Of a stretch of DNA of 64,000 bases, positions 3,645 to 59,252 are shown piece after piece (position 1 is the stretch's first letter; each line of letters opens with the position of its first letter). The stretch covers positions 1-64,000 of the forward strand of contig NZ_FOAZ01000004.1 of the NCBI RefSeq assembly GCF_900109465.1. Reading direction: 5' to 3'. This stretch comes from Streptacidiphilus jiangxiensis. GTDB lineage: Bacteria > Actinomycetota > Actinomycetes > Streptomycetales > Streptomycetaceae. The position numbers were made by a program, and so were the translations under genes. The notes under the pieces are model-generated. The model was not told the DNA's origin and did not search any database. It saw only the letters and a list, made by a program, of their open reading frames with translations.

Positions 3645-6251
3645 TCAGCCGATGGACAGGCGGTAGTCACCGGCTGCACAGCCCGTGACGCGCCACCCGC
3701 CGGGCACCTGGTGCACGGTCAGCTGGGTGAGTCCAGTGGCGGTCGGCGTCGGTTTGGTCGTGCCGGGGTACCAGACGTCGAGGGTGCAGGCCGGGCCGGT
3801 CGTCGTCGCGAGCGGGGCCACACCGGTGAGCGAGAAGGCGCCGCTGACGGTGTCGGAGGTCAGCGCGGTGAGGGTGCCGGGGGCGGTGCGCGGGTAGGCG
3901 CGGGACAGTACCGCGACGGTCCCCGCCGAGGGGGCGACGTCCTTGCCCGTCGCGCAGTCGACGCCGACGAGGTTGCCGACCACGGTCGCGTGCTGGTCGC
4001 TCTCGGGGCTGCCGCAGGCCTGCTTCCAGACCCAGTAGGCGTCGCCGATCCGCGCCTGGTCCTCGGCGGCGGCGAAGCGGTGCAGCATCGCCGGGTTGCC
4101 GGCGGGGTCCGCGGGGCTGCCCGTGGTGGACGTGGTGGAGCCGAACCAGCCCCACTCACCCGCCCACAGTGGCATCCCGTAGACCTTGGCCTGCTGTTCG
4201 GCCAGTGCGAAGCCGCGCTCGACGGATACCAGCGTCAGGCCGAGCGACTGGTCCATGGTGATCGACTCGCTGTACAGGTGCGGTGCGAAGACCAGGTAGG
4301 GGTCCGTGCTGAAGCCGCGCGGCGGCGCGGCGTCGAAGCCGAGCCCCGACCAGAGGACGCTGGGCTCGATGAAGACCAGGTGCGGGAAGCCGCCGGTCGC
4401 CTGCCGTTCGGCGGCGCGGATCGCCTGGACGGCCCGGTTCTCGTAGGCGCCCAGCAGCACGGAGGAGGTGGCCGGAGCGTCGTCGCCGACGCCGGGCTCG
4501 TTCAGCACGCCGTAGCCGGCGACGGCCGGGTCGTTGGCGAAGGTGCGTGCCACCAGGGACCAGGTGCGGACAAGTTCGCTCTGGATGCCGTCGGTGTCGT
4601 GGTAGAAGGCGCTGAACGCACGGGTGTTGGCGGGGGTGAGGTCGCGGCTGAGGGCCTGGCAGCGGGAGGCGCCGTCGATGAGGGTGGCCCAGGCGGGTGC
4701 GCCGTCGTAGCCGAGGGAGGGGGTGCTGCCGCTCGGGCAGGTCGTGCCGGCGGGTGCGGCGAGGGCCGGGCCCCAAGCGTCCTCGTGCATGTCGATGTCG
4801 GTGTAGAGGCCGTGCCGGGCGGCCATGGCGACGGTGGCCTTGATCCGGTCCAGGTAGGCCTGGTCGAACTGTCCGCGGCTGGGCTCCAGCGCCGACCAGG
4901 AGACGTCGAGCCGCACCACGTCGAAGCCGAGGGCCGCCATCCGGGCGAAGTCGCTGTCGCCGAGCGGGCGGACGGCGGCCCGGCCGGGCGTCGGCGGGGC
5001 GGCGTAGTCGACGAGTTGGTTGACGTTGACGCCGCGCAACAGCACCTGGCGGCCGTTCACGTCGCTGATCAGGGCGGGCGCGGTCGTGGTGGCCGGTCGG
5101 ACGGTGAGCGCGGGCAGCGGCGCCCCGGCGGTGGCGCGGGCACCGGCGTCGACGACGGGTGTGGCGGTCGCCGTGCTGGGGGTGGCCTGGGCCAGCAGCC
5201 AGGAGCCGAGAGCCAGCGCGGTGGCCGAGGCGAGGACCGTCGCGATGCGGCGCCGCTGCCCGGAGATCACCTCGAGCAGGCGGCTGATCAGCAGCAGTGT
5301 GGGGACGACGCCCCAGCCGAAGGCCACGCCGAGGGAGAGCCCGGTGCCGATGCGGAGCCCCGCGTCGGGGATCACGAACAGGTCGGTGCCCTGGAGATCG
5401 CGAGGCAGCGCGAGCAGGGTCTGCACCACTCCGGCGGCCGCGCCGCCGCCGAGGGCGGCGAGCCAGCCGCCCAGCAGCAGGTCGGCCGGACGGGTGTAGT
5501 CGAAGCGCCGCGAGGACCGGGCGAGCAGGATCGCGCCCACGATCGCGGCCGTCACCAGCTCCACGGCGAACCGTGCGGGTCCGAGGTCGAGCCCGAACGG
5601 CTGGCGGCGCAGGCTCAGTTGCTCGCCGTAGAAGGCCGCGGCGGGGGAGCCCTCCCAGAGCATCGGCCCGACGAGCGGGCCGAGCAGGGCGAGCGGCAGC
5701 GCCGTGCCGGTGAGGCACCAGCGCCACCCGTAGTGCGGCTGCGCCGACAGGCGGCGTCGCTTCGGCTCCTCGGGCCGGGGCCGGTACCGGTGCGCGTAGG
5801 CGCCGAGCACGGCCGGGATCCACCCGATCAGTGCGACCCGCGAGGCGGGCAGTCCGCAGTCCCACAGGGCGGTCGCGACGAGCGTCCGGGCGCCCCCGTG
5901 CACGCCTGCACCGGCGGTCTCGGCGACCATCTGGGCGAGGCGCGCGAGGGCGGTGGCGAGGACGGTGACGCCCCACAGCCGGAACACCATCCGCTTGCGT
6001 CCGGTGCTCTCGGCCGCGCCGCGGAAGGAGACGGCGGTGCCCCACGCGGTGACCAGCACCAGCACGGGCAGGAACACCGCGACCCCGGCGACGGACCAGA
6101 GCCCGCGGAGGGGCGTCACCTGGAACGCGGACCACGGCAGTGGTGCGAAGAGCGAGGTGGGATCGGCATAGGCGGCGGCCGCGCAGACCGCGACCAGCGA
6201 GCCGGCGGTGACGACGGCTGCGAACGGGGCGCGGCGTGAGGGGCGGGACAC
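3645..6251 (-). CDS. Membrane-anchored GH5 endoglycoceramidase-like glycosidase
   Basis: An 868-residue fusion. Residues 1-360 hold about seven to eight membrane helices with an Arg/Lys-rich loop near 155-170; residues 385-745 form a GH5 barrel; residues about 770-868 form a beta-rich tail like the C-terminal domain of endoglycoceramidases. The barrel opens with LLRGVNVNQLVDY, has the acid/base in GVLNEPG (Glu585) and the nucleophile in PLWAGEWGWF (Glu699), the spacing and wording of endoglycoceramidase rather than cellulase. Known family members release the glycan from glycosphingolipids and are usually secreted by a simple signal peptide. Here the enzyme would be tethered at the outer face of the membrane. 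The start is GTG at 6251. Substrate is inferred from family only; another beta-glucoside is possible. Confidence 0.82.
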   Translation of the reverse strand: MSRPSRRAPFAAVVTAGSLVAVCAAAAYADPTSLFAPLPWSAFQVTPLRGLWSVAGVAVFLPVLVLVTAWGTAVSFRGAAESTGRKRMVFRLWGVTVLATALARLAQMVAETAGAGVHGGARTLVATALWDCGLPASRVALIGWIPAVLGAYAHRYRPRPEEPKRRRLSAQPHYGWRWCLTGTALPLALLGPLVGPMLWEGSPAAAFYGEQLSLRRQPFGLDLGPARFAVELVTAAIVGAILLARSSRRFDYTRPADLLLGGWLAALGGGAAAGVVQTLLALPRDLQGTDLFVIPDAGLRIGTGLSLGVAFGWGVVPTLLLISRLLEVISGQRRRIATVLASATALALGSWLLAQATPSTATATPVVDAGARATAGAPLPALTVRPATTTAPALISDVNGRQVLLRGVNVNQLVDYAAPPTPGRAAVRPLGDSDFARMAALGFDVVRLDVSWSALEPSRGQFDQAYLDRIKATVAMAARHGLYTDIDMHEDAWGPALAAPAGTTCPSGSTPSLGYDGAPAWATLIDGASRCQALSRDLTPANTRAFSAFYHDTDGIQSELVRTWSLVARTFANDPAVAGYGVLNEPGVGDDAPATSSVLLGAYENRAVQAIRAAERQATGGFPHLVFIEPSVLWSGLGFDAAPPRGFSTDPYLVFAPHLYSESITMDQSLGLTLVSVERGFALAEQQAKVYGMPLWAGEWGWFGSTTSTTGSPADPAGNPAMLHRFAAAEDQARIGDAYWVWKQACGSPESDQHATVVGNLVGVDCATGKDVAPSAGTVAVLSRAYPRTAPGTLTALTSDTVSGAFSLTGVAPLATTTGPACTLDVWYPGTTKPTPTATGLTQLTVHQVPGGWRVTGCAAGDYRLSIG

Positions 6252-6406
6252 GCGGCCGATGCTAGGGACGCGCGTAGGCGCGCAACAGGGGTCACTCCTG
6301 TCTCACAGCAACTCGGCGTGCCCAGACCCGGACAAGCCGGGGCGACCCGGCTGTGAAAGTTTGGCGCAGGGAACCGGGCTCGTGGTCCTCGCCGTCCTGG
6401 GCTGTC

Positions 6407-7192
6407 ATGACTGCTCTCGGGCAACTCTTCCGTTTCGGCTGGACCCAGGCGCAGTGCTGCGCGTTCTCGGTTCTGCTCTTCGCCGGCATGGCCGCTGTCC
6501 GCCTCGCCCCGGCGCTGCCGCTCGCGCGCTACGACCTGCTCCTCGCCTGCGGCATCGCGCTGACGGCGCTGATGTGGACGCTGGGCGTCGAGTCCGGCCG
6601 CGACGTGCTGGCGGTGCTGGCCTGCCACGTGCTGGGGCTGGCGCTGGAGCTGGTGAAGGTCCACGTCGGCTCCTGGAGCTACCCCGAGCACGCCCTCACC
6701 AAGCTCGCCGGGGTCCCGCTGTACAGCGGCTTCATGTATGCGGCGGTCGGCAGCTACGTCTGCTGCGCCTGGCGTCTCCTCCGCCTGCGCGTCACGGGCT
6801 ACCGCCCGCTCGCCGTCCCGCTGCTCGCGGCCGCGCTCTTCGTCAACTTCCTCACCGACCACTGGCTCCCGGACGTCCGCCTGCCTCTCGCGGCTCTTCT
6901 TGTCGCGGCGCTGTGGGGTACCACGGTCCGTTTCACTGTCGGCGGCCGCGACCACCGCATGCCGCTGACGCTCTCCTTCGTCCTCATCGGCTTCTTCCTC
7001 TGGCTCGCCGAGAACATCGCCACCTTCCTCGGCGCCTGGCGCTACCCGTACCAGCGTCACGGCTGGCAGCCGGTCTCGACCCACGAGTGGGGCTCCTGGA
7101 CCCTGCTGATCGCCGTCCTCTTCGCCCTGGTGCGCCTCTTGGCGCCGGGAGCGCAAGAGAGGAACGGGCGGCGTGTCCGAGCAGCCCGCTGA
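6407..7192 (+). CDS. DUF817 family integral membrane protein
   Basis: A 261-residue protein with eight or so hydrophobic segments that matches the DUF817 family, including the conserved VHVGSWSYPEHALTKLAGVP and GFFLWLAENIATFLGAWRYP regions. The function of the family is unknown. The ATG at 6407 starts directly before the first amphipathic segment; an in-frame GTG at 6353 would add 18 residues without a clear ribosome site. It is divergent from the GH5 gene and convergent with osaC, so it stands alone. Confidence 0.85.
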   Translation: MTALGQLFRFGWTQAQCCAFSVLLFAGMAAVRLAPALPLARYDLLLACGIALTALMWTLGVESGRDVLAVLACHVLGLALELVKVHVGSWSYPEHALTKLAGVPLYSGFMYAAVGSYVCCAWRLLRLRVTGYRPLAVPLLAAALFVNFLTDHWLPDVRLPLAALLVAALWGTTVRFTVGGRDHRMPLTLSFVLIGFFLWLAENIATFLGAWRYPYQRHGWQPVSTHEWGSWTLLIAVLFALVRLLAPGAQERNGRRVRAAR

Positions 7193-7218
7193 CGCGGGAG
7201 GACTGAGGGCCGGGCTCG

Positions 7219-9963
7219 TCAGCGCGCCTGGGGTGCCGGGGCGCCCAGGACCCGTAGGGCCAGGATCGCCATGTCGTCGGAGGCGGGGTCGGCGGCGAAG
7301 CGTTCCACCGCGCGCAGGACGCGGGTGGCGACGGCGCCGGCGGTGAGGCCGGTGCAGGTGGTCAGGACGGAGGCGAGGCCGTCGTCGCCGAGCATGCGGG
7401 GTCCGTCGCGGCGTTCGGTGATGCCGTCGGTGACGCAGAGGAGGACGTCGCCGGGGTCGAGGACGAGGGTCTCCGTCTCGAGGTCGAGCTCGTCGAGGAC
7501 GCCCAGCAGCGGCTGCGGCGAGGCTGCGGGGGTGACGGTGCCGTCGGGGCGCAGGCGCAGCGGCAGGGGGTGGCCCGCGCAGACGGTGCGCAGTTCGACG
7601 GTGCCGTCCTCGCGCGGGGTCATCTCGCCGTAGAGGAGGGTGAGGAAGCGGCCGCGGTCGCCCTCGTCGAGGATGGCGGCGTTGAGACGCTGCAGCACTT
7701 CCGGCGCGGAGAGACCCTCGCGGGCGAGCAGCCGCAGCGAGTGGCGGGCCAGGCCGGTGACCGAGGCGGCCTCGGGGCCGGTGCCGCAGACGTCGCCGAT
7801 GGCGAAGCCGTAGGTGCCCTCGCGGATCGGGAAGATGTCGTAGAAGTCGCCGCCGACCTCGTTGCCCTCGCCGGCCGCGCGGTAGATGACCTCGACCTCG
7901 ACGCCGGGCACCCGCGGCACCGCAGGCGGCAGCAGACTGCGCTGCAACGCCCGTGAGGTGGCCGTGCGTTCGAAGTAGAGGCGGGCGTTGTCGAGGGCGA
8001 GCGCGGCCCGCCGCGACAGGTCCTCGGCCAGCTCCAGGATCTCGCGGCGGAACTTCTCCTCGGCGGGCTTGCCGAGCGTCAGCATGCCGATGACGCGGTT
8101 ACGGGCGACCAGCGGCAGCACCACGGTGTCGCCGCCGACGGTCGCGACGGTGGCCAGCGCGGTGCGCTGGGCCGCGGTCTCGCCCGCGCCCTGGGTGCGG
8201 GCGCGCAGGGTGGCACGCAGCGCGGCGTCCTGGGCGGCGTCGGTGGGCGCGGGCCACTCGCGCGCGCCGGGCGTGTTCAACGGCTCCGGGGGCGCGATGC
8301 GCTCCAGCAGGGCGCGCAGACCGTCGATCTGCTCCTCGTCCTCGTGCAGGACGTAGGCGAGCTCGGGGACGGAGGGGTCGACGCCCGTGTAGGTCGTGTA
8401 GACGGCGCACCAGGAAGCGAGCGTCGGCACGGTCATCTGTGCGACGAGCGCGAGGGTCTGGTCCCGCTCCAGCGTGCCGGCCAGCAGGTCGGAGGCCTCG
8501 ACGAGGAACGACAGTGAGCCGCGTCGCAACCGCTCCAGCTCCGTCAGCCGGGCGCTCTCGACGGCGAGAGCGATCCGGTCGGCGGCGAACTGCAGCCGCA
8601 GCGCGTCGTCGTTGCGGTACTGGCCCGGTGACTGCGCGGCGACGCCGAGGGAGCCGGTGAGGCGGCCCTCGACCTTGAGCGGCACCGTCACGACCGAACG
8701 CAGACCGGTGCCACCGAGCAGCGGCACCGCGCCGGGGGAGTCGGCGAGGTCGTCGTGGACGGTGGGCAGCCGGGCGGAGTCGTAGCGGCCGACGCCGGAC
8801 TCCACGGGCACCCGGGCGAAGCGCTGTCGGCCGGACGGCAGTCCGCAGCTGGCGCGGACCTCCAACTCGGTCTCGTCGTCGGTGGCGAGCAGCAGGTAGG
8901 CGGCGTCGCCGTCGAGCAGGTCGCGGGCGCGCTCGACGGTGCGCTGGAGCAGGCCGTCGAGGTCGTCGGGCGCCTGGCCGCCGGTGAGCGGGCCGAGGAA
9001 GGCGTCGAGGGCGGGGCCGTCGGCACGGGTGCCACCCTCCGCGCCACCCCCCTTGGCGGCGCGCGAAGGGGTCTGCAGCACCGCGCGCTCCTCCTCGCGC
9101 ACGAGCAGGCAGACGGTGGAGGGGTTGCCATGGGTGTCACGCACGCGCAGGTGCGCGCCGTAGACGCCGAGCAGGCGGCCGTCGCCGCGCCGCATCGCGT
9201 AGCTGCCCTCCCAGCGCGACAGCCGCAGCGCCTCGTCGACGCCGAGACTGGTGCCGGGCGTCTGCGGCCACGCGGCCAGCTCCGCGAAGGGGCGGCCGAC
9301 GGCCTTGACGGCGGGGTGCTGGAAGAGCAGCTCGGCGTCCTGGTTCCAGGCGGAGACCAGGCCTTCGCCGTCCACCTGCACGACGGCGACGTGGACCTGC
9401 TCCTCGGCCTCGGGCAGCTGCGCGTCGGGGGTGACCGGGCCGGCGGCGCGGGTGCCGGTGGGGCGTGCGGGCAGGTCGAGGGTGAACCAGACGCGCTTGT
9501 CGGTGGCGGTGTAGTCGACGCCCCAGCGCGAGGCGAGCGCCGCGCACAGCAGCAGGCCGCGGCCGCCCTCGCGCTCCAACTCGGCGGTGGGGGCCGGGCC
9601 CTCGTCGGCGCCGGGGTAGATGGGCAGGGCGCGGCGCGGGTAGCGGTCGCCGACCTCGATGCGAACCTGCTCGCCCTGGCGCAGCAGTTCGACCAGGGCG
9701 GCGGTGCCCGCGTGCACGACCGCGTTCGTCACCAGTTCGCTGACCAGGACGACGGCGTCGTCGACGACCTCGCCGAAGCCCCAGCCCTGGAGCGTGTCGC
9801 GGACGAAGGCGCGTGCGCCGGCGACGGAGCGGCCGACGGGTTCGAACGTGGCGGCGGCCCGCGCGGTGGCCTCACCCACGAGCGCCTCCTCCTTCATCTG
9901 GGCTGCCGGGTCACTGGGACAAACACCGACCCACGCCGCCAGGTTACTGATCCGCGGTACCAC
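7219..9963 (-). CDS. osaC: OsaC-like multidomain regulator: RsbW-type kinase, PAS, GAF, PP2C phosphatase
   Basis: A 914-residue cytoplasmic protein. In order: an RsbW-like ATPase/anti-sigma kinase domain (about 30-165, with SELVTNAVVHAG and GGRGLLLC), a PAS domain (about 190-290), two GAF domains (about 330-475 and 490-650) and a SpoIIE/PP2C phosphatase (about 680-905, GGDFYDIF, GDVCGTGPEAA, SDDMAILAL). Next to osaA and osaB this is the arrangement of S. coelicolor OsaC, which returns sigma-B activity to base level after osmotic stress. The long start (GTG 9963) is shown; ATG 9897 is a reasonable alternative because the first 22 residues look non-conserved and neither start has a strong ribosome site. 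A sigma-B-like promoter is visible upstream. Confidence 0.9.
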   Translation of the reverse strand: MVPRISNLAAWVGVCPSDPAAQMKEEALVGEATARAAATFEPVGRSVAGARAFVRDTLQGWGFGEVVDDAVVLVSELVTNAVVHAGTAALVELLRQGEQVRIEVGDRYPRRALPIYPGADEGPAPTAELEREGGRGLLLCAALASRWGVDYTATDKRVWFTLDLPARPTGTRAAGPVTPDAQLPEAEEQVHVAVVQVDGEGLVSAWNQDAELLFQHPAVKAVGRPFAELAAWPQTPGTSLGVDEALRLSRWEGSYAMRRGDGRLLGVYGAHLRVRDTHGNPSTVCLLVREEERAVLQTPSRAAKGGGAEGGTRADGPALDAFLGPLTGGQAPDDLDGLLQRTVERARDLLDGDAAYLLLATDDETELEVRASCGLPSGRQRFARVPVESGVGRYDSARLPTVHDDLADSPGAVPLLGGTGLRSVVTVPLKVEGRLTGSLGVAAQSPGQYRNDDALRLQFAADRIALAVESARLTELERLRRGSLSFLVEASDLLAGTLERDQTLALVAQMTVPTLASWCAVYTTYTGVDPSVPELAYVLHEDEEQIDGLRALLERIAPPEPLNTPGAREWPAPTDAAQDAALRATLRARTQGAGETAAQRTALATVATVGGDTVVLPLVARNRVIGMLTLGKPAEEKFRREILELAEDLSRRAALALDNARLYFERTATSRALQRSLLPPAVPRVPGVEVEVIYRAAGEGNEVGGDFYDIFPIREGTYGFAIGDVCGTGPEAASVTGLARHSLRLLAREGLSAPEVLQRLNAAILDEGDRGRFLTLLYGEMTPREDGTVELRTVCAGHPLPLRLRPDGTVTPAASPQPLLGVLDELDLETETLVLDPGDVLLCVTDGITERRDGPRMLGDDGLASVLTTCTGLTAGAVATRVLRAVERFAADPASDDMAILALRVLGAPAPQAR

Positions 9964-48209: not shown

Positions 48210-48974
48210 CTATCTCCTGCGGAGGCGGGAGACGAAGTCGCGGGCGCGGAAGGTGCGGGGGGCCGAGAAGAACTGCTCCGGGGGTGCCGATTCGACGATG
48301 CGGCCCCCGGACATGAACAGGACGCGGTCCGCCGCGGCGTGGGCGAACCCGGGGTCCTCGGTGACGATGAGCATGGTGCGGCCGTCGGCCGCCAGCTCGC
48401 GAGCGAGCTCGTGGAGGTCCGCCGCGGGTTCGTCGAGGACCAGCACCTTGGGGTCCAGGACCAGGGCGCGGGCCAGCGCGACCCTGCCGCGACCGGACGG
48501 GCCCAGCTGCCGGCCGCGCAGGGCCGCCTCCGACTCCGCGCCGACCTTCCGCAGCGCGCCCGCCGTGCGCTCCGCGGCCACCTCGGGCGCGGTGCCGCGG
48601 GCCTCGATCTGGCAGCGGGTCAGTTCGCCGAAGACGGTGCGGCCGAGGCCCAGCGCACCGGCCAGGGCGTGTTCGACGGTCTCCGGCGGCGGCACCAGGC
48701 CGACGTCTGCCCGCGCCCTGCGCCGCGCGCGCCCGCGCCCGCCGGTGGGGAGGGGTGCGCCGTCGAGCAGGATCTCCCCCGAGTCGATGCGCTCGGCGCC
48801 GTGGATGGCCCGGCACAGGGTGGTCTTGCCGGCGCCGGGCGGCCCGACCAGGGCGACCACCTCGCCGCGCGAGAGCTCCAGGTCCACCTCGTGCAGGGCC
48901 TGCACCAGCCCGTGCCGCTTGCTCACGCCCCTCAGCTGCAGCAGCCCGGCGGGCGGCGCGGCGGCGGAGGTCAC
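48210..48974 (-). CDS. gluA: Degenerate GluA-type ABC transporter ATPase, probably inactive
   Basis: A 254-residue protein that aligns along its whole length with amino-acid-import ATPases of the GluA/GlnQ type (IDSGEILLDGAPLP; AADRVLFMSGGRIVE; RARDFVSRL). Walker A is kept (GPPGAGKT, Lys50), as is Walker B (VLVLDEP, Glu182). But the Q-loop glutamine is lost (VGLV-PPPE at 91-98), the ABC signature is changed from LSGGQ to LGPSGRGR (157-164), about a dozen residues of the D-loop region are missing after DEPAADL, and the switch histidine is Glu206. ATP hydrolysis is therefore unlikely. No permease or binding-protein gene follows. The reading frame is open, so it may be a recent or repurposed remnant. 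Next gene: the divergent GluR-like regulator. Confidence 0.75.
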   Translation of the reverse strand: MTSAAAPPAGLLQLRGVSKRHGLVQALHEVDLELSRGEVVALVGPPGAGKTTLCRAIHGAERIDSGEILLDGAPLPTGGRGRARRRARADVGLVPPPETVEHALAGALGLGRTVFGELTRCQIEARGTAPEVAAERTAGALRKVGAESEAALRGRQLGPSGRGRVALARALVLDPKVLVLDEPAADLHELARELAADGRTMLIVTEDPGFAHAAADRVLFMSGGRIVESAPPEQFFSAPRTFRARDFVSRLRRR

Positions 48975-48990
48975 GGCGGTCCCACTCCTC

Positions 48991-49011
48991 GGGGCGTTGC
49001 AGGGGCGTTGC
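48991..49011. promoter_or_regulatory. Direct repeat GGGGCGTTGC x2 before gluA remnant
   Basis: The 317-bp divergent gap between the ATPase remnant and the response regulator (48975-49291) has one clear feature: two identical GGGGCGTTGC units (48991-49000, 49002-49011) with an 11-bp period, as bound by OmpR-family regulators. It is a candidate GluR site. Otherwise nothing was recognised in the gap. Confidence 0.45.
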
Positions 49012-49291
49012 GTCGGTGCGGAACTTCAGGCGGTTCGGTCGGGCAGACTCCAGGTCTTCCGGATGGAGGTGGAGGACGCCCGTTCCCGACTCTACGGGGC
49101 CGTTCGCGCGCGCATCACACTTCTGAGGGTGATTTGAGGATCATGTGTTCTCCGGGTGCCGATCCGCGCTCCGGATCATCGCAGCTCGGTAACGGAACCC
49201 GCCGGTCACGCGCCGCCACTTGACCTGAGCCGGTCCGATGAGGGTGGATGCCTGCTGGAGACCGACCCAACCCTGGCGGGAGGAGTGACCC

Positions 49292-50020
49292 GTGCGCCTG
49301 CTCCTGGTCGAGGACGACGAACACGTCGCCGCCGCCTTGATGGCCGTGCTGGGCAAGCACGGGTTCGAGGTGCGCCATGCCCGTTCGGGGAACGAGGCGC
49401 TGGACGCCCTCGTGCCCGACGGCCGTCCGCAGTTCCGGGTGGTGCTCCTCGATCTCGGGCTGCCCGACCGGGACGGGTTCGACGTGTGTGACCAGATCCG
49501 GCGCCGCTGCGGCATCCCGGTGATCATGGTCACCGCGCGGGCCGAGGTCCGCGACCGTATCCACGGGCTGAACATCGGCGCCGACGACTACATCGTCAAG
49601 CCCTACGACATGGGCGAGCTGCTGGCCCGGATCCACGCCGTGGCCCGTCGCGACGCCGCCGCCCGCCCGGTTCCGGCGCAGGCCCAGGCTGCGGGGGACG
49701 ACGCGCAGGGGCTGCTCGACCGGGCCTTCGGGCTGGTGCTGGACCAGGCGTCGCGCCGCGCCACCGTGCACGGCGAGGACGTCGCGCTGACCCGCAAGGA
49801 GTACGAGCTGCTGGCGCTGCTCGCCCAGAGCCCCGGCGTGGTCTTCCGGCGCGAGCAGATCATCAGTGAGGTGTGGCGCAGCAGCTGGGACGGGACGGCC
49901 CGGTCGCTGGAGGTCCACGTCGCCTCGCTGCGCCGCAAGATCGGCCTGCCCGGCCTGATCGAGACGGTGCGGGGCATCGGCTACAAGCTGGCCGTGCCCG
50001 ACCATCTGGTCCGCGACTGA
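49292..50020 (+). CDS. gluR: OmpR-family response regulator, GluR-like
   Basis: A 242-residue regulator: receiver domain with VEDDE acidic pocket, phosphoacceptor Asp54 in VLLDLGLPDRDG, Thr in IMVTA and Lys in DDYIVKPYD, then a Pro/Ala linker and a winged-helix domain (about 150-235, TRKEYELLALLAQSPGVVFR). GTG at 49292 has GGGAGGAG 7 nt upstream. It is followed by its kinase after 21 bp. Position next to a gluA-type gene and after rny matches S. coelicolor GluR-GluK, which activates gluABCD in response to glutamate. Assignment to GluR is by synteny. Confidence 0.8.
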   Translation: MRLLLVEDDEHVAAALMAVLGKHGFEVRHARSGNEALDALVPDGRPQFRVVLLDLGLPDRDGFDVCDQIRRRCGIPVIMVTARAEVRDRIHGLNIGADDYIVKPYDMGELLARIHAVARRDAAARPVPAQAQAAGDDAQGLLDRAFGLVLDQASRRATVHGEDVALTRKEYELLALLAQSPGVVFRREQIISEVWRSSWDGTARSLEVHVASLRRKIGLPGLIETVRGIGYKLAVPDHLVRD

Positions 50021-50041
50021 CACGACCGCCGGAACCCTCCC

Positions 50042-51445
50042 ATGCGTACCCGCCTGCTCGGCATCCTGCTCGTGCTGCTCGCCTGTGTGCTGCTCGCGCT
50101 CGGCGTTCCGCTGGCCGCCAGCGAGGCCCAGACGGAGCAGCAGCGCGTCGTGGTCGACCGGATCGACGACACGGCGCGCTTCGCCGCGCTCGCACAGAAC
50201 CCCTTCGGCCAGCCGGACTCGGCCGACGCCGGCGAGCAACAGCGCACCCTCGACGCCGAGCTCCGTCGCTACCACGACGTCTACGGCATCTCGGCCGGGA
50301 TCTTCGACCTCTCCGGCAAGGAACTGCACGCCTACCCGTCGAGCTGGCAGAACGCGCTGAGCGGTGACTCCGCCGAGCCCTTCCGCGAGGCGCTGGACGG
50401 GCGCCGCAGCCACGACCCCGCCCAGGTCTGGCCGTGGGACGGCCCCTCGGCCCGGCTCGTGATCGCCTCCCCGGTCGTCTGGGACGGGGACGTGGTCGCG
50501 GTGGTGGTCACCGAGTCGCCGACGGACGGGCTGCGCGCCCGGGTGCTGAGCGCCTGGCTGTGGCTGATCGGCGGGGAGTCCCTTGCCGTGCTCTTCGCGG
50601 TCGGCGGCGCCGTCGTGCTGACCCGGTGGGTGCTGCGGCCGGTGCACGACCTGGACAAGGTCACCCACGACATCGCCACCGGACGCCTCGCCTCCCGGGT
50701 CGCCCCGGCCGGCGGACCGCCGGAGCTGCGCCGTCTGGCGCACGCCTTCAACGAGATGGCGGACCACGTCGAGCTGGTGCTCGACCAGCAGCGGGCGTTC
50801 GTCGCGGACGCCTCGCACCAGCTGCGCAATCCCCTGTCCGCGCTGATGCTGCGGGTCGAGGTGCTGGGCATGGAGCTGCCCGACGGCCACGACGAGGAGA
50901 TGGCGGGCGTGCGCGAGGAGGGCCGCCGCCTCGCGCAGGTCCTCGACGACCTGCTGGGCCTCGCCCGCGCGGAGAACGCCCGCCCGGCGGCGCTGCCGAC
51001 CGACGTGGGCCGGATCGTCGCCGACCGGGTCGAGGGCTGGAGCGCGTACGCGCGGGAGCGCGGTGTCTCCCTCGACCTCCGCGTGCCGCAGGGCGACCCG
51101 CTGACGGCGCTGGCCGATCCGGTGGGGCTGGGCAGCGCGCTGGACGCGGTGCTGGACAACGCGCTCAAGTTCACGCCCGAGGGCGGCGCGGTGCGGGTGG
51201 AGACGCAGGCGGAGGCCGCTGCGGTGGTGATCCGCGTGACGGACGGCGGTCCGGGCCTGGACGAGGACGAACTCGCCCGCATCGGCGACCGTTTCTGGCG
51301 CAGCCCGCGCCACCAGAACACCGACGGCTCGGGCCTCGGCCTGTCCATCGCCCGCGCCCTGCTCACCGCGAACGGCGGCGCGATCGACTTCGCGGCCCAA
51401 CAGCCCAAGGGGTTGACGGTCACCGTGACGCTGCCGGTCGGATAA
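50042..51445 (+). CDS. gluK: Sensor histidine kinase, GluK-like
   Basis: A 467-residue membrane kinase: helix 1 (about 4-25), an extracellular sensor (about 27-170), helix 2 (about 173-195), HAMP (about 197-248), HisKA with His259 in ADASHQLRNPLSAL and an HATPase domain (about 360-465, DNALKFTPEGG and TDGSGLGLSIARAL). The extracellular region has no recognised fold. It is the partner of the upstream regulator. If it senses glutamate as GluK does, its usual output, the uptake operon, is missing here. Confidence 0.82.
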   Translation: MRTRLLGILLVLLACVLLALGVPLAASEAQTEQQRVVVDRIDDTARFAALAQNPFGQPDSADAGEQQRTLDAELRRYHDVYGISAGIFDLSGKELHAYPSSWQNALSGDSAEPFREALDGRRSHDPAQVWPWDGPSARLVIASPVVWDGDVVAVVVTESPTDGLRARVLSAWLWLIGGESLAVLFAVGGAVVLTRWVLRPVHDLDKVTHDIATGRLASRVAPAGGPPELRRLAHAFNEMADHVELVLDQQRAFVADASHQLRNPLSALMLRVEVLGMELPDGHDEEMAGVREEGRRLAQVLDDLLGLARAENARPAALPTDVGRIVADRVEGWSAYARERGVSLDLRVPQGDPLTALADPVGLGSALDAVLDNALKFTPEGGAVRVETQAEAAAVVIRVTDGGPGLDEDELARIGDRFWRSPRHQNTDGSGLGLSIARALLTANGGAIDFAAQQPKGLTVTVTLPVG

Positions 51446-53525: not shown

Positions 53526-54551
53526 TCAGGGCTTGACCGAGACGTAGTAGCGGCGGGCGCCCTCCGCCAGCGGCAGCGGTTGCGTGTAGATCGCGGACCG
53601 GACGTCCACGAGCTGGGCGGCGTGCACGCGCTGGCCGATCGCGTCGCGGCTGCTCATCACGACCTCGGTCATCCGCTCCACCAGTGAGCTCGGCACGTCC
53701 GCGCGGGTGACCAGCAGGTTGGCCACCGCCAGCGTCGAGACGGACTCGTCCGGCTCACTGGCGGGGTAGGCCCAGCGCGGCACCGTGGACGCGCGGTAGA
53801 TCTGGGTGTTCCGGGCGCCCGGGTCGACCTGCTGCGCCAGCTCGTCCATCTGCGTCGAGAGCGTGCCGAGCGGCACCAGCCGCACGTGGTCCTGCTTGGT
53901 GAGGGCGATGATGCCCTCGGTCGGCAGGCCACCGGACCAGAAGAAGGCGTCGATGCGGTGCGCCTTCAGCGCGGCCGGCGCGTCCGCGATCCCGTACGGC
54001 AGCTCCTGCAGGTCCCTCCCGGCCTGCAGATGGGAGATGGCCAGCACCCGGTGGGCGATCAGCTGCACGCCGCTGCCGGGCTGGCCGGTGCCCACGCGCA
54101 GGCCCTGGAGGTCCTTGACGGACTTCACGGGGGAGTCGGAGGGGACCACGAGCTGCACGTAGTCGTCGTAGAGCTGGCCGAGCGCGCGGAGCTGGTCCTT
54201 GCCCGGTCCGGAGAAGTGGGCGACCGCGTCGGCGGTGGCGATGCCGAAGTCGTCGCGTCCGTCGGCGACCCGGGCCAGGTTGTCCGGACCGCCGACGCTC
54301 GGGTCCAGCGCCAGCCGGACGCCCGGCAGCCCGTGGTCCACCGCGGCCTGCAGCAGCGTCCCGTAGAGCGCGTACACGCCCGAGGGCGCGCCGGTGGCCA
54401 TCCGGAAGGTGCCGGTCGGGTAGTCCGGACCGCTGTCGGTGCCCAGCCAGCCGCCCAGTGCGGTCACCGCGACCAGCGCGAAGGCGAGGCCCAGCCGCAC
54501 ACGGCGCAGCCCGAGCAGGCGGCGCAGTCGGGGCGGCAGGGTCACAGGCAT
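53526..54551 (-). CDS. TAXI-family TRAP transporter solute-binding protein
   Basis: A 341-residue protein with one N-terminal signal/anchor helix (about 18-38) and a TAXI binding-protein domain (about 45-335: FRMATGAPSGVYALYGTLLQ, LRVGTGQPGSG, AFFWSGGLPTEGI). TAXI proteins bring glutamate or other acids to TRAP permeases. No DctQM-type permease is nearby, so it is an orphan, as usual for this locus in Streptomyces; it may be a sensory partner. It is next to a GluK-like kinase region in the conserved order but convergent with the MerR gene. Confidence 0.85.
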   Translation of the reverse strand: MPVTLPPRLRRLLGLRRVRLGLAFALVAVTALGGWLGTDSGPDYPTGTFRMATGAPSGVYALYGTLLQAAVDHGLPGVRLALDPSVGGPDNLARVADGRDDFGIATADAVAHFSGPGKDQLRALGQLYDDYVQLVVPSDSPVKSVKDLQGLRVGTGQPGSGVQLIAHRVLAISHLQAGRDLQELPYGIADAPAALKAHRIDAFFWSGGLPTEGIIALTKQDHVRLVPLGTLSTQMDELAQQVDPGARNTQIYRASTVPRWAYPASEPDESVSTLAVANLLVTRADVPSSLVERMTEVVMSSRDAIGQRVHAAQLVDVRSAIYTQPLPLAEGARRYYVSVKP

Positions 54552-54639: not shown

Positions 54640-55431
54640 TCAGCCGCGGGAGCGCTCCCGCGGGGCATCCGCCCGTGGGGCCTTGCCCCGGCCGCGACCG
54701 GCCCGGGCGGCTGTGGTCCCGGCCGTGGTCGGTGTCTTCCCGGACCCCGACCCGCCCGACTCGGACTGGGCCTCGACCTCGGCGGTCGCGCGCTCCGCCT
54801 CCTGGTGTGCCCGGACCAGCCGTTCGCCGCGGTCCGGTGCCATGTCCAGCCGCACCAGGATCGACGGGACCGCGATGCTGGGCAGCAGCAGCTGCTGCAT
54901 GCCGGCGATGTACTCGGGCAGGTCCTGGTAGCCCGTCAGCAGGCCGGACATCATCTGCAGGCCGGCGAAGGCGCCCACGCACAGACCCGCCGTCCTCGGC
55001 ACGTCGACCTGGGGCAGCAGCTCGCCCTGCTCCCGCGCGGCCTCCAGGACGCGCAGGATCGAGTCGTTCCAGTCGTGGAACGGCTGGGACCGCGCCGCGA
55101 TGGGCGTGCGCTCGTCCAGGGTGAGCCGGACGCTCGCCCGCACCAGCGGTTCCGTGCGCAGCCGCTGGGCCAGCACCTGGGCCGTGTCGATGAACTCCTG
55201 GAGACGGATGGGCTGCGGCAGCACCGCGGACTCGTCGCTCTGTGCCTCCAGGACGGCGTTCGCCAGTTCCTCCTTGGAGGCGAAGTGGAAGTAGAGCGCC
55301 CCCTTGGTCACCTGGGCGACGCTCAGCACCTCGGCGATGGTGGCCGCCTGGTAGCCGTCCCGTTCGAAGACCGCCGCCGCCGCCTCGATGATCTTCCGTC
55401 GTGTGGCGACGGCCCGCTCCTGCTGGGCCAA
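54640..55431 (-). CDS. Gamma-butyrolactone receptor (ArpA/ScbR family)
   Basis: A 263-residue TetR-type repressor with the conserved butyrolactone-receptor HTH: AVFERDGYQAATIAEVLSVA and VTKGALYFHFASKEELANAV (about residues 8-62), and a ligand domain with the typical Trp (FHDWNDSILRVLEAAR). The last 45 residues are an unusual Ser/Gly/Arg/Pro-rich tail not found in ArpA or ScbR (about 215-230 residues). The start is TTG at 55431 with GGAAGGA upstream. It is divergent from an AfsA-type synthase with two ARE-like sites between, so it should repress both until the lactone signal binds. Confidence 0.9.
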   Translation of the reverse strand: MAQQERAVATRRKIIEAAAAVFERDGYQAATIAEVLSVAQVTKGALYFHFASKEELANAVLEAQSDESAVLPQPIRLQEFIDTAQVLAQRLRTEPLVRASVRLTLDERTPIAARSQPFHDWNDSILRVLEAAREQGELLPQVDVPRTAGLCVGAFAGLQMMSGLLTGYQDLPEYIAGMQQLLLPSIAVPSILVRLDMAPDRGERLVRAHQEAERATAEVEAQSESGGSGSGKTPTTAGTTAARAGRGRGKAPRADAPRERSRG

Positions 55432-55455
55432 GAATCCGTCCTTCCGCGCGTAACC

Positions 55456-55479
55456 GGTATCAGACCTATCAGTTTGTTC
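55456..55479. promoter_or_regulatory. ARE-like operator 1
   Basis: GGTATCAGACC-TATCAGTTTGTTC fits the right part of the autoregulatory element consensus (ACYNNNCGGTTTKTTT) with few changes; it also contains the direct repeat TATCAG at 9-bp spacing. It lies 25 bp before the receptor start and is the likely autorepression site. Confidence 0.6.
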
Positions 55480-55517
55480 CTCGCCAGGTTACCTCTTTGT
55501 GTCGTCCCCGGGGAGCC

Positions 55518-55546
55518 TTGAAAAAAAACCACGTGCCTCGTATGTT
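55518..55546 (+). promoter_or_regulatory. afsA-type gene promoter with ARE-like operator 2
   Basis: TTGAAA (55518-55523), 17 bp, TATGTT (55541-55546). Within it, 55522-55545 read on the opposite strand matches the ARE consensus at most defined positions (A-tract, AAACC, GTATGT). Receptor binding here would cover the promoter completely. Confidence 0.65.
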
Positions 55547-55616
55547 TTCAGTCGCGCTAGCCAGTCCGGGGCATTCCATCCGAATCAGCACCATCCGACT
55601 GGAACGGGGAACCGCA

Positions 55617-56540
55617 ATGAGTCCCAGCCTCACCGCCTCCGCCTCCTCCCTCGCGGAGCTCACACACCGGATCGAGCAGGTCGAGGTCCTGCCGACCGAC
55701 TGGATCAGGCTCGGGGGCGATCGCTACCTGATCTCCGCCCGCTGGCTCCACCCCTTCTTCGTGCCCGTGCACGGCTACTCCTTCGACCCCTTACTCGTGG
55801 TCGAGAGCATGCGCCAGAGCAGCATCCTGGTCAGCCACGTCGGCTTCGGGGTGCCGACCGACCATCGGTTCGTGATGAACAGCATGTCCTTCGCCGCGGA
55901 GCAGGGCGCGCTGTCCGGCGCGGAGCGGGGCTGCACCGAGACGGGCGGCGACGCCGTGATCGAGGTGCACTGCACCGACGTGCTGCACCGCGGCCGCCAG
56001 CTGGCCGGGCTGCGCACCGAGGTCCAGGTGCGGTTCGGCGGACGGCTCGTGGCGACGGGGGCCGGGAACATCGGGTTCGTCCGCCCCTCCGTCTACGAGC
56101 GGCTGCGCGGACACTGTCCGCTCAGCACCGATGCCGCGGTGCGGACGGCGCCGCTCCCCACGCCGCTGGACCCCTGGCTGGTGGGCCGGGCGAGCGAGGA
56201 GGACGTGCTGCTCGCGCCGAGCGGCCAGCAGGACTGCTGGCAGCTGCGGTGCGACCCCACGCACCCCGTCCTCTTCCACCGCCCGAGCGACCACGTCCCC
56301 GGGATGATGTTGTTGGAGGCCGCCCGGCAGGCGGCCCACGCGGCCACCGTGTCCAGCAGACCGTTCGTGCCCCTGGGCGGCGGGCTGAAGTTCCACCGCT
56401 ACGCCGAGCTCGACCAGCCTGTCTGGATCCAGGCGTACGCCGTGGACCTCGGTCGGGACGGCTGTTCCGTCGTCGTGCGCGGGCGGCAGAACGACACCCT
56501 GGTCTTCGAGGGCGTGCTCGCGGCCGGGGCCGACGCGTGA
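55617..56540 (+). CDS. AfsA/ScbA-family gamma-butyrolactone synthase
   Basis: A 307-residue protein with two hot-dog AfsA domains (about 45-175 and 205-300): HPFFVPVHGYSFDPLLVVES and LFHRPSDHVPGMMLLEAARQ are the hallmark segments. AfsA-type enzymes condense a beta-ketoacyl group with dihydroxyacetone phosphate in butyrolactone signal synthesis. The ATG at 55617 has GGGGAA upstream. It is divergent from the receptor and overlaps an NmrA-like reductase gene by GTGA, the arrangement of jadW1-jadW2-type pairs. Hence this strain probably makes its own butyrolactone signal. Confidence 0.9.
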   Translation: MSPSLTASASSLAELTHRIEQVEVLPTDWIRLGGDRYLISARWLHPFFVPVHGYSFDPLLVVESMRQSSILVSHVGFGVPTDHRFVMNSMSFAAEQGALSGAERGCTETGGDAVIEVHCTDVLHRGRQLAGLRTEVQVRFGGRLVATGAGNIGFVRPSVYERLRGHCPLSTDAAVRTAPLPTPLDPWLVGRASEEDVLLAPSGQQDCWQLRCDPTHPVLFHRPSDHVPGMMLLEAARQAAHAATVSSRPFVPLGGGLKFHRYAELDQPVWIQAYAVDLGRDGCSVVVRGRQNDTLVFEGVLAAGADA

Positions 56541-58419: not shown

Positions 58420-58478
58420 TTCAGCCAGACACCCGCGCCGGCGTGGACCGGAAGCGAGCGAGATTTGGGGGATTGATC

Positions 58479-59252
58479 GTGAGTCTTCCTCTACGAAATC
58501 AACAGGACCAGGCGTTCGGGGCGTGGCGGGTCCTCGTCGTCGAGAACGACGAGGTGGAGGCCCAGTTGCTGGCGCTCCGGCTCAGACGCCACGGACACGA
58601 GGTGGAGAGCGTCGCGACCGGCGACGCCGCGTTACGCCGCTGGGACCAGGCCGATCTGGTGCTGCTGGACCTGGAACTGCCCGACCTCGACGGGCTCGAG
58701 GTCTGTCGGGGCATCCGCGAGACCAGCATGCTGCCGGTCATCGCGGTCACCTCGCGCGACTCCGAGCTCGACTGCGTCCTGGCGCTGCAGGTCGGCGCCG
58801 ACGACTACATGGTCAAGCCCTACGGCTTCCGGGAGCTGATGGCCCGGATCGAGGCGGTGATGCGGCGCTCCGGCCCCCGTCGGGTGTTGCCGGTGACGAT
58901 CGCCTACGGGGAGCTGCGCATCGACGCGGGCACCCGCGAGGTCTTCCTGGCGGGGCAGCGGATCGAGCTGACCCGCAAGGAGTTCGACCTGCTGCGGCTG
59001 CTCGCGGCCAACCCCGGCGTGGTGCTGGAGCGCGAGCGCCTGTTGGAGGAGGTCTGGGGCCAGACCTGGTCGCGCCGGACCCTCGACACCCACGTCAGCA
59101 GTCTGCGGGCCAAGCTCGGCGCGAGCGACTGGGTGATCACCGTGCGCGGCGTCGGCTTCCGGCTCGGCCCGGCCGAGCGTGGCGCCGCGCGCGACGGCCG
59201 CAGTGACGACGAGCGCGACGGTGACCGCGACGACGATCGGAGGTCGGCATGA
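58479..59252 (+). CDS. JadR1-type OmpR-family cluster activator
   Basis: A 257-residue OmpR-type regulator: receiver (about 16-130) and winged helix (about 150-240, LTRKEFDLLRLLAANPGVVL, LEEVWGQTWSRRTLDTHVSSL). Asp64 (VLLDLELPDLDG), Thr91 and Lys113 are conserved, but the acidic pocket reads E22-N23-D24, so one metal ligand is Asn, as in atypical regulators of this class. No kinase gene is nearby. GTG at 58479 has GGGGGA 6 nt upstream; an in-frame GTG at 58443 lies too close to the transcription start. Its ATGA overlap couples it to the next gene. It probably activates the polyketide genes that follow, under butyrolactone control. Confidence 0.85.
   Translation: MSLPLRNQQDQAFGAWRVLVVENDEVEAQLLALRLRRHGHEVESVATGDAALRRWDQADLVLLDLELPDLDGLEVCRGIRETSMLPVIAVTSRDSELDCVLALQVGADDYMVKPYGFRELMARIEAVMRRSGPRRVLPVTIAYGELRIDAGTREVFLAGQRIELTRKEFDLLRLLAANPGVVLERERLLEEVWGQTWSRRTLDTHVSSLRAKLGASDWVITVRGVGFRLGPAERGAARDGRSDDERDGDRDDDRRSA

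Follow-up and report, generated by a model that had tools for sequence, protein, structure and literature searches.

The closest described counterpart of the locus considered here is the GluR-GluK two-component system of Streptomyces coelicolor (SCO5774-5779), reported to control the importer genes gluABCD, whose sensor kinase GluK is activated by glutamate (available part of the review PMC9739842). The literature consulted presents GluRK as a switch for glutamate sensing and uptake. The window analyzed here, the whole stretch of 64,000 nt from Streptacidiphilus jiangxiensis (contig NZ_FOAZ01000004.1, positions 1-64,000, forward strand; assembly GCF_900109465.1), carries gluR and gluK of the same two-component family in a similar place, together with a lone ATP-binding cassette (ABC) ATPase of the GluA type and a gene for a TAXI solute-binding protein. 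GluR, GluK, an operator-like repeat and TAXI are all kept, and the sensor is still in use. We put the chances slightly above even that GluK-GluR and TAXI constitute a sensory unit that has lost an optional importer cargo.

The locus was compared among 14 Streptacidiphilus genomes, the window genome counted in, while genome-wide searches covered 200 genomes of the family. Loci were read in two sets, the first of 21 (the 14 of the genus and seven outgroups) and the second of 18, of which 15 were chosen for a gluC that was absent or lay far from gluK, while three served for comparison. Genome G013 was left out of the ATPase table, the estimates of nonsynonymous to synonymous substitution (dN/dS) and the trees because its frames are broken (assembly 76% complete). 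The tandem OmpR-type regulator and HAMP/HisKA/HATPase kinase are recognized as a two-component system by Pfam, and the initial annotation had placed both genes correctly. The pair is homologous to and syntenic with that of family members carrying gluABCD, and GluK was matched in 198 of the 200 family genomes (E ≤ 1e-70); no divergent gluABCD operon adjoins gluR-gluK in the window genome. The gene order is constant in 14/14 Streptacidiphilus (tblastn), running from rhodanese-like, cysteine-dioxygenase-like and FAD-monooxygenase-like genes through the ATPase, gluR-gluK and a MerR-like gene to TAXI, the neighbors being named by eye and TAXI tested.

The initial annotation proposed that gluBCD had been lost and saw no binding-protein or permease gene next to the ATPase. 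The loss is borne out, since tblastn (E ≤ 1e-5) detected no gluB, gluC or gluD at the locus in any of the 14 Streptacidiphilus genomes and none at G015; the absence of neighbors holds for these genes and fails for the TAXI binding-protein gene, about 2.1 kb downstream of gluK. Six of the seven first-fetched outgroup loci have gluABCD at the same place, and the seventh, G015, has the ATPase alone. Relocation within the window genome was rejected because no orthologue was found: the GluC profile gave no match at 1e-30, as in 10 of the 14 genus genomes in all, and the best GluB match reached 149 bits (106-185 across the genus), whereas the other genera searched, except G015 (165), score 237-534 bits for the gluB next to gluK or for their highest-scoring gluB. 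GluC matches away from the locus in G001, G005, G010 and G012 scored at most 159 bits, whereas a gluC close to gluK gives 179-405 bits in relatives.

Absence of the importer extends beyond the genus. The GluC profile matched 123/200 family genomes at 1e-60 and left 63 genomes outside Streptacidiphilus unmatched, 49 of which match at 1e-40, some beside gluK (G021 was read) and some elsewhere. At 14 of the 15 selected loci neither ATPase nor gluBCD lies between the monooxygenase-like gene and gluR, and G029 keeps a lone ATPase. On a GluK+GluR tree (41 rows, G013 excluded) importer presence needs at least four changes, a count that cannot separate gain from loss; the 13 degenerate ATPases fall in one clade (100/99), sister to G015 (96/87). 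As this sister lineage keeps an intact lone ATPase, the loss of gluBCD probably predates Streptacidiphilus. The simplest history suggested by the sequences is that gluBCD was lost before the genus, the ATPase motifs later, and the importer separately in other lineages.

Of the 42 loci read, all but G015 have TAXI and gluK convergent, and these 41 include all 14 from which gluABCD has wholly gone. The term "orphaned", applied to gluR-gluK in the initial annotation, is therefore misleading, as the pair and the convergent TAXI gene remain as a constant set. The idea that TAXI is a newly recruited GluR target was likewise rejected: the arrangement is ancestral, occurring with and without gluABCD, and the window scan found no GluR-type repeat before TAXI. 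Outside Streptacidiphilus (27 loci), the gap between the TAXI and gluK match ends is 31-248 bp in 22 and 955 bp to 8.9 kb in five, the largest value belonging to G087, where only the TAXI end fell in the stretch read; across the 14 Streptacidiphilus loci the gap spans 1.9-5.8 kb and contains inserted genes. The window genome has no TAXI match other than the protein near gluK, which passes the curated cut-off of TIGR02122. A DctM membrane permease, which would make it part of a TAXI-TRAP transporter, was not recognized: 38/39 genomes lack a TRAP permease by the PF06808 profile, whose controls were positive in 7/14 known genomes, and the window genome yielded one partial 32-bit DctM match on another contig (cut-off 23.8). 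At least 31 of 41 TAXI N-terminal stretches contain a hydrophobic segment, often ending in a WWL-like motif (that of the window was read by eye), and at least six of 41, including those of Nonomuraea and the NBC_01207 plasmid, have a lipoprotein-like Cys near it, which suggests that TAXI is probably membrane-anchored.

The same module also occurs beside other transporters, in two cases of one record each. On a plasmid of Streptomyces sp. NBC_01207 (L203, NZ_CP108555.1), a GluK-like kinase gene at 5891-7354 (40% identity) converges with an annotated TAXI gene (ends 4926-5882); the regulator gene, next after the kinase (47% identity), is transcribed divergently from genes for a TRAP fused permease and another TAXI protein. 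In Nonomuraea gerenzanensis, a gene that looks MFS-like by eye adjoins the same set of TAXI (33%), kinase (38%) and regulator (49%). We tentatively propose, at less than even chances, an undescribed three-component class of Actinomycetota, to which GluK would belong. Here a TAXI protein anchored in the membrane and lacking a permease would be the extracytoplasmic ligand receptor of a histidine kinase, and the regulated transporter (ABC gluABCD, TRAP-TAXI or MFS) would be exchangeable; in Streptacidiphilus, the cargo would be gone and the ATPase turned into a nucleotide-binding regulatory subunit. No report of a TAXI protein paired with a GluK-type kinase was found in the literature searched.

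Under the explanation of a sensory unit without its cargo, GluK-GluR-TAXI would ancestrally have adjoined gluABCD and controlled it, as reported for S. coelicolor. In the Streptacidiphilus ancestor, gluBCD was lost, as the comparison shows, and the leftover ATPase gave up the residues for hydrolysis and permease coupling, as its sequence shows; it would persist as a nucleotide-binding, non-transport accessory of the GluRK unit. TAXI, without a recognizable TRAP permease, would present its ligand to GluK outside the membrane, a step to which we give about an even chance, and GluR would act on its spacer as well as on targets at other loci.

Several observations weigh against this explanation. 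In S. coelicolor, GluK binds glutamate directly in biolayer interferometry (available part of PMC9739842), so GluK may be able to do without a binding protein. The pocket of TAXI is unlike that of the glutamate-binding VcGluP (PDB 8s4j, taken as VcGluP by inference from residue numbering): Tyr45, a key residue together with Gln93, is kept in 40/40 proteins, Trp and Ser stand in place of Tyr200 and Met201 in all 40, and the Gln93 column holds Thr in 23 (including the window), Ala in 11, Gln in four and Leu in two; the ligand may therefore not be glutamate. The window TAXI gene is separated from gluK by 2.1 kb, G015 has no TAXI gene nearby, and the two convergent genes are not co-transcribed. 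Moreover, complete but divergent GluABCD-like sets, recognized by weak ATPase, GluB and GluC matches side by side, lie away from gluRK in G001 (C1:9334560-9337797) and G010 (C2:1000285-1003470), so importers of this kind are not entirely missing from the genus. Because 15 loci were picked for a weak or distant gluC, the locus frequencies are not those of random samples. Finally, the structure model of the ATPase is unusable (pLDDT, the predicted local distance difference test, 48; the GluK model, at 53, is also too poor for use), and no physical tie between the ATPase and GluRK is in evidence.

Some of these points favor the strongest rival, which we consider rather unlikely, namely that GluK senses its ligand alone, that GluRK owes its retention to control of other genes, such as the antibiotic genes of S. 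coelicolor, and that TAXI is an old neighbor with a separate job. Direct glutamate binding, the altered pocket and the lack of a shared operon all fit it, as does the antibiotic role of GluRK in S. coelicolor, which is independent of uptake (available part of PMC9739842) and speaks for functions beyond gluABCD. It accounts poorly for the TAXI linkage in 41/42 loci, which reappears beside other transporters, and for the lack of a TRAP permease in nearly all genomes searched.

The spacer between the ATPase gene and gluR indicates where GluR may act. All 21 first-set loci contain [CT]TGAG-N6-TTGAG in this spacer; a repeat period of 11 bp fits an OmpR-type regulator. A stricter 17-base pattern matches the spacer repeat in 17/21, while G000, G006, G007 and G008 differ at one base. 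As a scan of the window alone with three mismatches allowed found one match against 0.80 expected, which is not significant, the case for a candidate GluR operator rests on conservation. In the second set, the repeat occurs in 7/18 loci (five importer-less g14 genomes, G017 and G027) and this form is absent from 11; the Streptomyces sp. BHT-5-2 record has the repeat, and the Nonomuraea and NBC_01207 loci lack it. The statement in the initial annotation that no local target remains is thus at odds with a conserved candidate site. Its own proposed GluR site, a direct repeat, does exist and was rejected as such, since it is private to the window genome (0/20 other gluA/gluR spacers read); many spacers contain further short repeats with comparable spacing. 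As a separate observation, the spacer of G007 (L129) has an extra copy of the second half, GATTTGAGGATCAGGATTTGAGG, before gluR, in that species only.

Rewiring to other loci, also suggested by the initial annotation, yielded one candidate. The 17-base pattern occurs at 36 places in 21 genomes, 17 at the glu locus and 19 elsewhere; given that a reversed control pattern gave 9 places, most of the 19 are probably due to chance. A wider GluR regulon was rejected, because among 12 places read only one was common to several genomes. There, the repeat precedes a two-gene operon of KamA type in G000, G002, G006, G007 and G008, the five species that form the window clade, with one changed base in one of the five; the DNA further upstream is unrelated between species, and the spacer 3' of the repeat is also conserved in parts. 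The first product (349 aa) has no NCBIfam match and one Pfam match, DUF5919, below cut-off, and the second is a 438-aa KamA-family radical SAM protein below the family cut-offs. Its identification as a glutamate 2,3-aminomutase was not supported (94 bits, cut-off 650). Within 1.5 kb on either side, the pattern is absent near 18 of 23 KamA homologues in 101 family genomes, including those of G004, G005, G010, G011 and G013. The operon is a candidate GluR target suggested by the position of the repeat.

The window ATPase keeps Walker A GPPGAGKTT and Walker B VLVLDEP and has LVPPP, LGPSG, AADLH and E206 in place of the MVFQS, LSGGQ, SALD and His of its relatives. Of the features of a GluA/GlnQ-type importer ATPase, it thus retains the Walker motifs and lacks the Q-loop Gln, the LSGGQ signature, the D-loop and the H-loop (switch) His, as the initial annotation had read, and no cognate permease and binding protein were found in a search of the window locus and genome. 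Its closest named relatives (84-86% identity) are those of Streptacidiphilus neutrinimicus (G007), melanogenes (G006), anmyonensis (G002) and pinicola (G008). None of the 13 readable Streptacidiphilus copies has an exact LSGGQ, the SALD D-loop or the H-loop His, although G003 retains LTGGQ; the Q-loop Gln is missing from 12, and G008 has a Gln in the corresponding column within altered surroundings. All 13 retain the Walker A Lys and the Walker B Asp, and 11 of them the Walker B Glu, which G011 and G012 have lost. The copy in G004 (L134) lacks the stretch containing the signature region, and that in G009 (L133) carries a long, in-frame insert rich in proline and glycine. Replacements vary between subclades, and the motif losses are therefore partly parallel. 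ATPases of other lineages are canonical in 12/12, ten with gluBC(D) and two without (G015 and G029); none of the ten beside gluBC(D) is altered, and all 13 altered ones stand at loci without gluBCD. The finding that the initial annotation named as its refutation, altered motifs in many genomes retaining gluBCD, thus did not turn up.

While the initial annotation called this ATPase decayed, the condition is common to the genus, and the substitution pattern identifies a protein under purifying selection. Frames are open in 13/13 copies, and dN/dS is 0.12-0.33 (Nei-Gojobori, 12 within-genus pairs), compared with 0.06-0.27 for gluR, 0.14-0.37 for gluK, 0.16-0.42 for TAXI and 0.06-0.23 for the monooxygenase-like gene. 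Neutral simulations under nine settings gave mean dN/dS of 1.15-1.72 with a minimum of 0.45, and a stop in 3-45% of lineages; they are a rough control, as simulated dS (0.04-0.16) lies below that of all 12 real pairs (0.18-0.67). Judged by its motifs, the protein is unlikely to be a working transport ATPase. Because it is still selected with an intact Walker A, it may most plausibly be a nucleotide-binding, non-transport accessory of the regulatory unit, a role to which we give distinctly less than even chances. It is improbable that it is a slowly decaying remnant without function: the differing substitutions among subclades, the further losses in G011, G012 and G004, the insert in G009 and a dN/dS above that of gluR would fit, whereas the open frames, a dN/dS well below the neutral means, the invariant Walker A Lys and the conserved C-terminal part argue otherwise. 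That it energizes the permease of another importer is very improbable, for although such sharing is known for sugar importers and the window genome has other polar amino-acid importer ATPases, these are separate genes and the protein lacks the Q-loop Gln, signature, D-loop and switch His. The initial annotation as a whole is therefore partly supported.

Table 1. Features of the glu locus in the window and of the candidate distant site.
Feature	Position	Strand	Basis
GluA-type ABC ATPase standing alone; Q-loop Gln, LSGGQ, D-loop and H-loop His missing	48210-48974	-	Open reading frame, 254 aa; Pfam ABC_tran
Direct repeat of the initial annotation, private to the window genome, outside the conserved unit	48991-49011	+	Spacer comparison
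Candidate GluR site, a tandem, operator-like repeat (TCTGAGGGTGATTTGAGG) with a period of 11 bp	49122-49139	+	Same repeat in first-set spacers
Second conserved spacer block TCGCAGCTCGGTAACGG	49179-49195	+	Spacer alignment
Promoter-like TTGACC ... GTGGAT before gluR	49220-49249	+	By eye; TTGACC conserved in seven-genome spacer alignment
gluR, OmpR-type response regulator	49292-50020	+	Pfam Response_reg/Trans_reg_C
gluK, sensor kinase	50042-51445	+	Pfam HAMP/HisKA/HATPase_c
TAXI solute-binding protein, convergent with gluK	53526-54551	-	TIGR02122, 211.5 bits (cut-off 84.35)
GluR-box-like repeat before 349-aa protein/KamA-family operon	G000 contig C38:2787-2803 (in L154)		Pattern scan

Other features were observed around the locus. 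Four outgroup genomes have, between gluK and TAXI, a gene fusing a Ser/Thr kinase to a GluB-like binding domain (L142:10706-12640, L143:7130-9082, L145:3902-5869 and L147:272-2203); the L142 fusion was tested in Pfam (Pkinase and SBP_bac_3), and the other three were assigned by sequence grouping. Adjoining TAXI in the window, 54640-56540 holds a divergent pair, TetR-like and AfsA-like by eye, without counterpart in the grouped loci of relatives. A second OmpR-like regulator frame lies at 58443-59252, with 43% identity to GluR over 58527-59165.

Against the picture of GluRK in the literature consulted, the comparison depicts the importer as dispensable and TAXI as the constant neighbor, which changes what should be tested as the signal input of GluRK. 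Members of the family also form a natural series, from a full importer through an intact and then a stripped lone ATPase to none, in which to study how a transport ATPase comes to be retained for a different purpose. The window locus has the spacer repeat in common with its gluABCD-bearing relatives and differs from the S. coelicolor system in having neither gluBCD nor any importer, and an ATPase stripped of its hydrolysis motifs. The window TAXI protein belongs by sequence to the glutamate-binding TAXI family of VcGluP and TtGluBP (available part of PMC11574862) and keeps the pocket Tyr45. Unlike these proteins, it has no recognizable TRAP permease, its counterparts of Gln93, Tyr200 and Met201 are replaced, and its gene is convergent with that of a histidine kinase. 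A further parallel involves GlnX, which belongs to the mycobacterial GlnH-GlnX-PknG pathway of amino-acid sensing. In sensing of that type, a solute-binding protein signals to a kinase (available part of PMC6069109), as proposed here, although the mycobacterial pathway has a Ser/Thr kinase and another binding-protein family. Finally, TAXI-GltS of Bordetella pertussis, as described in the available part of PMC12344293, is likewise a TAXI protein outside a TRAP transporter, but it takes part in uptake with the GltS carrier and has an elongated, dimeric architecture.

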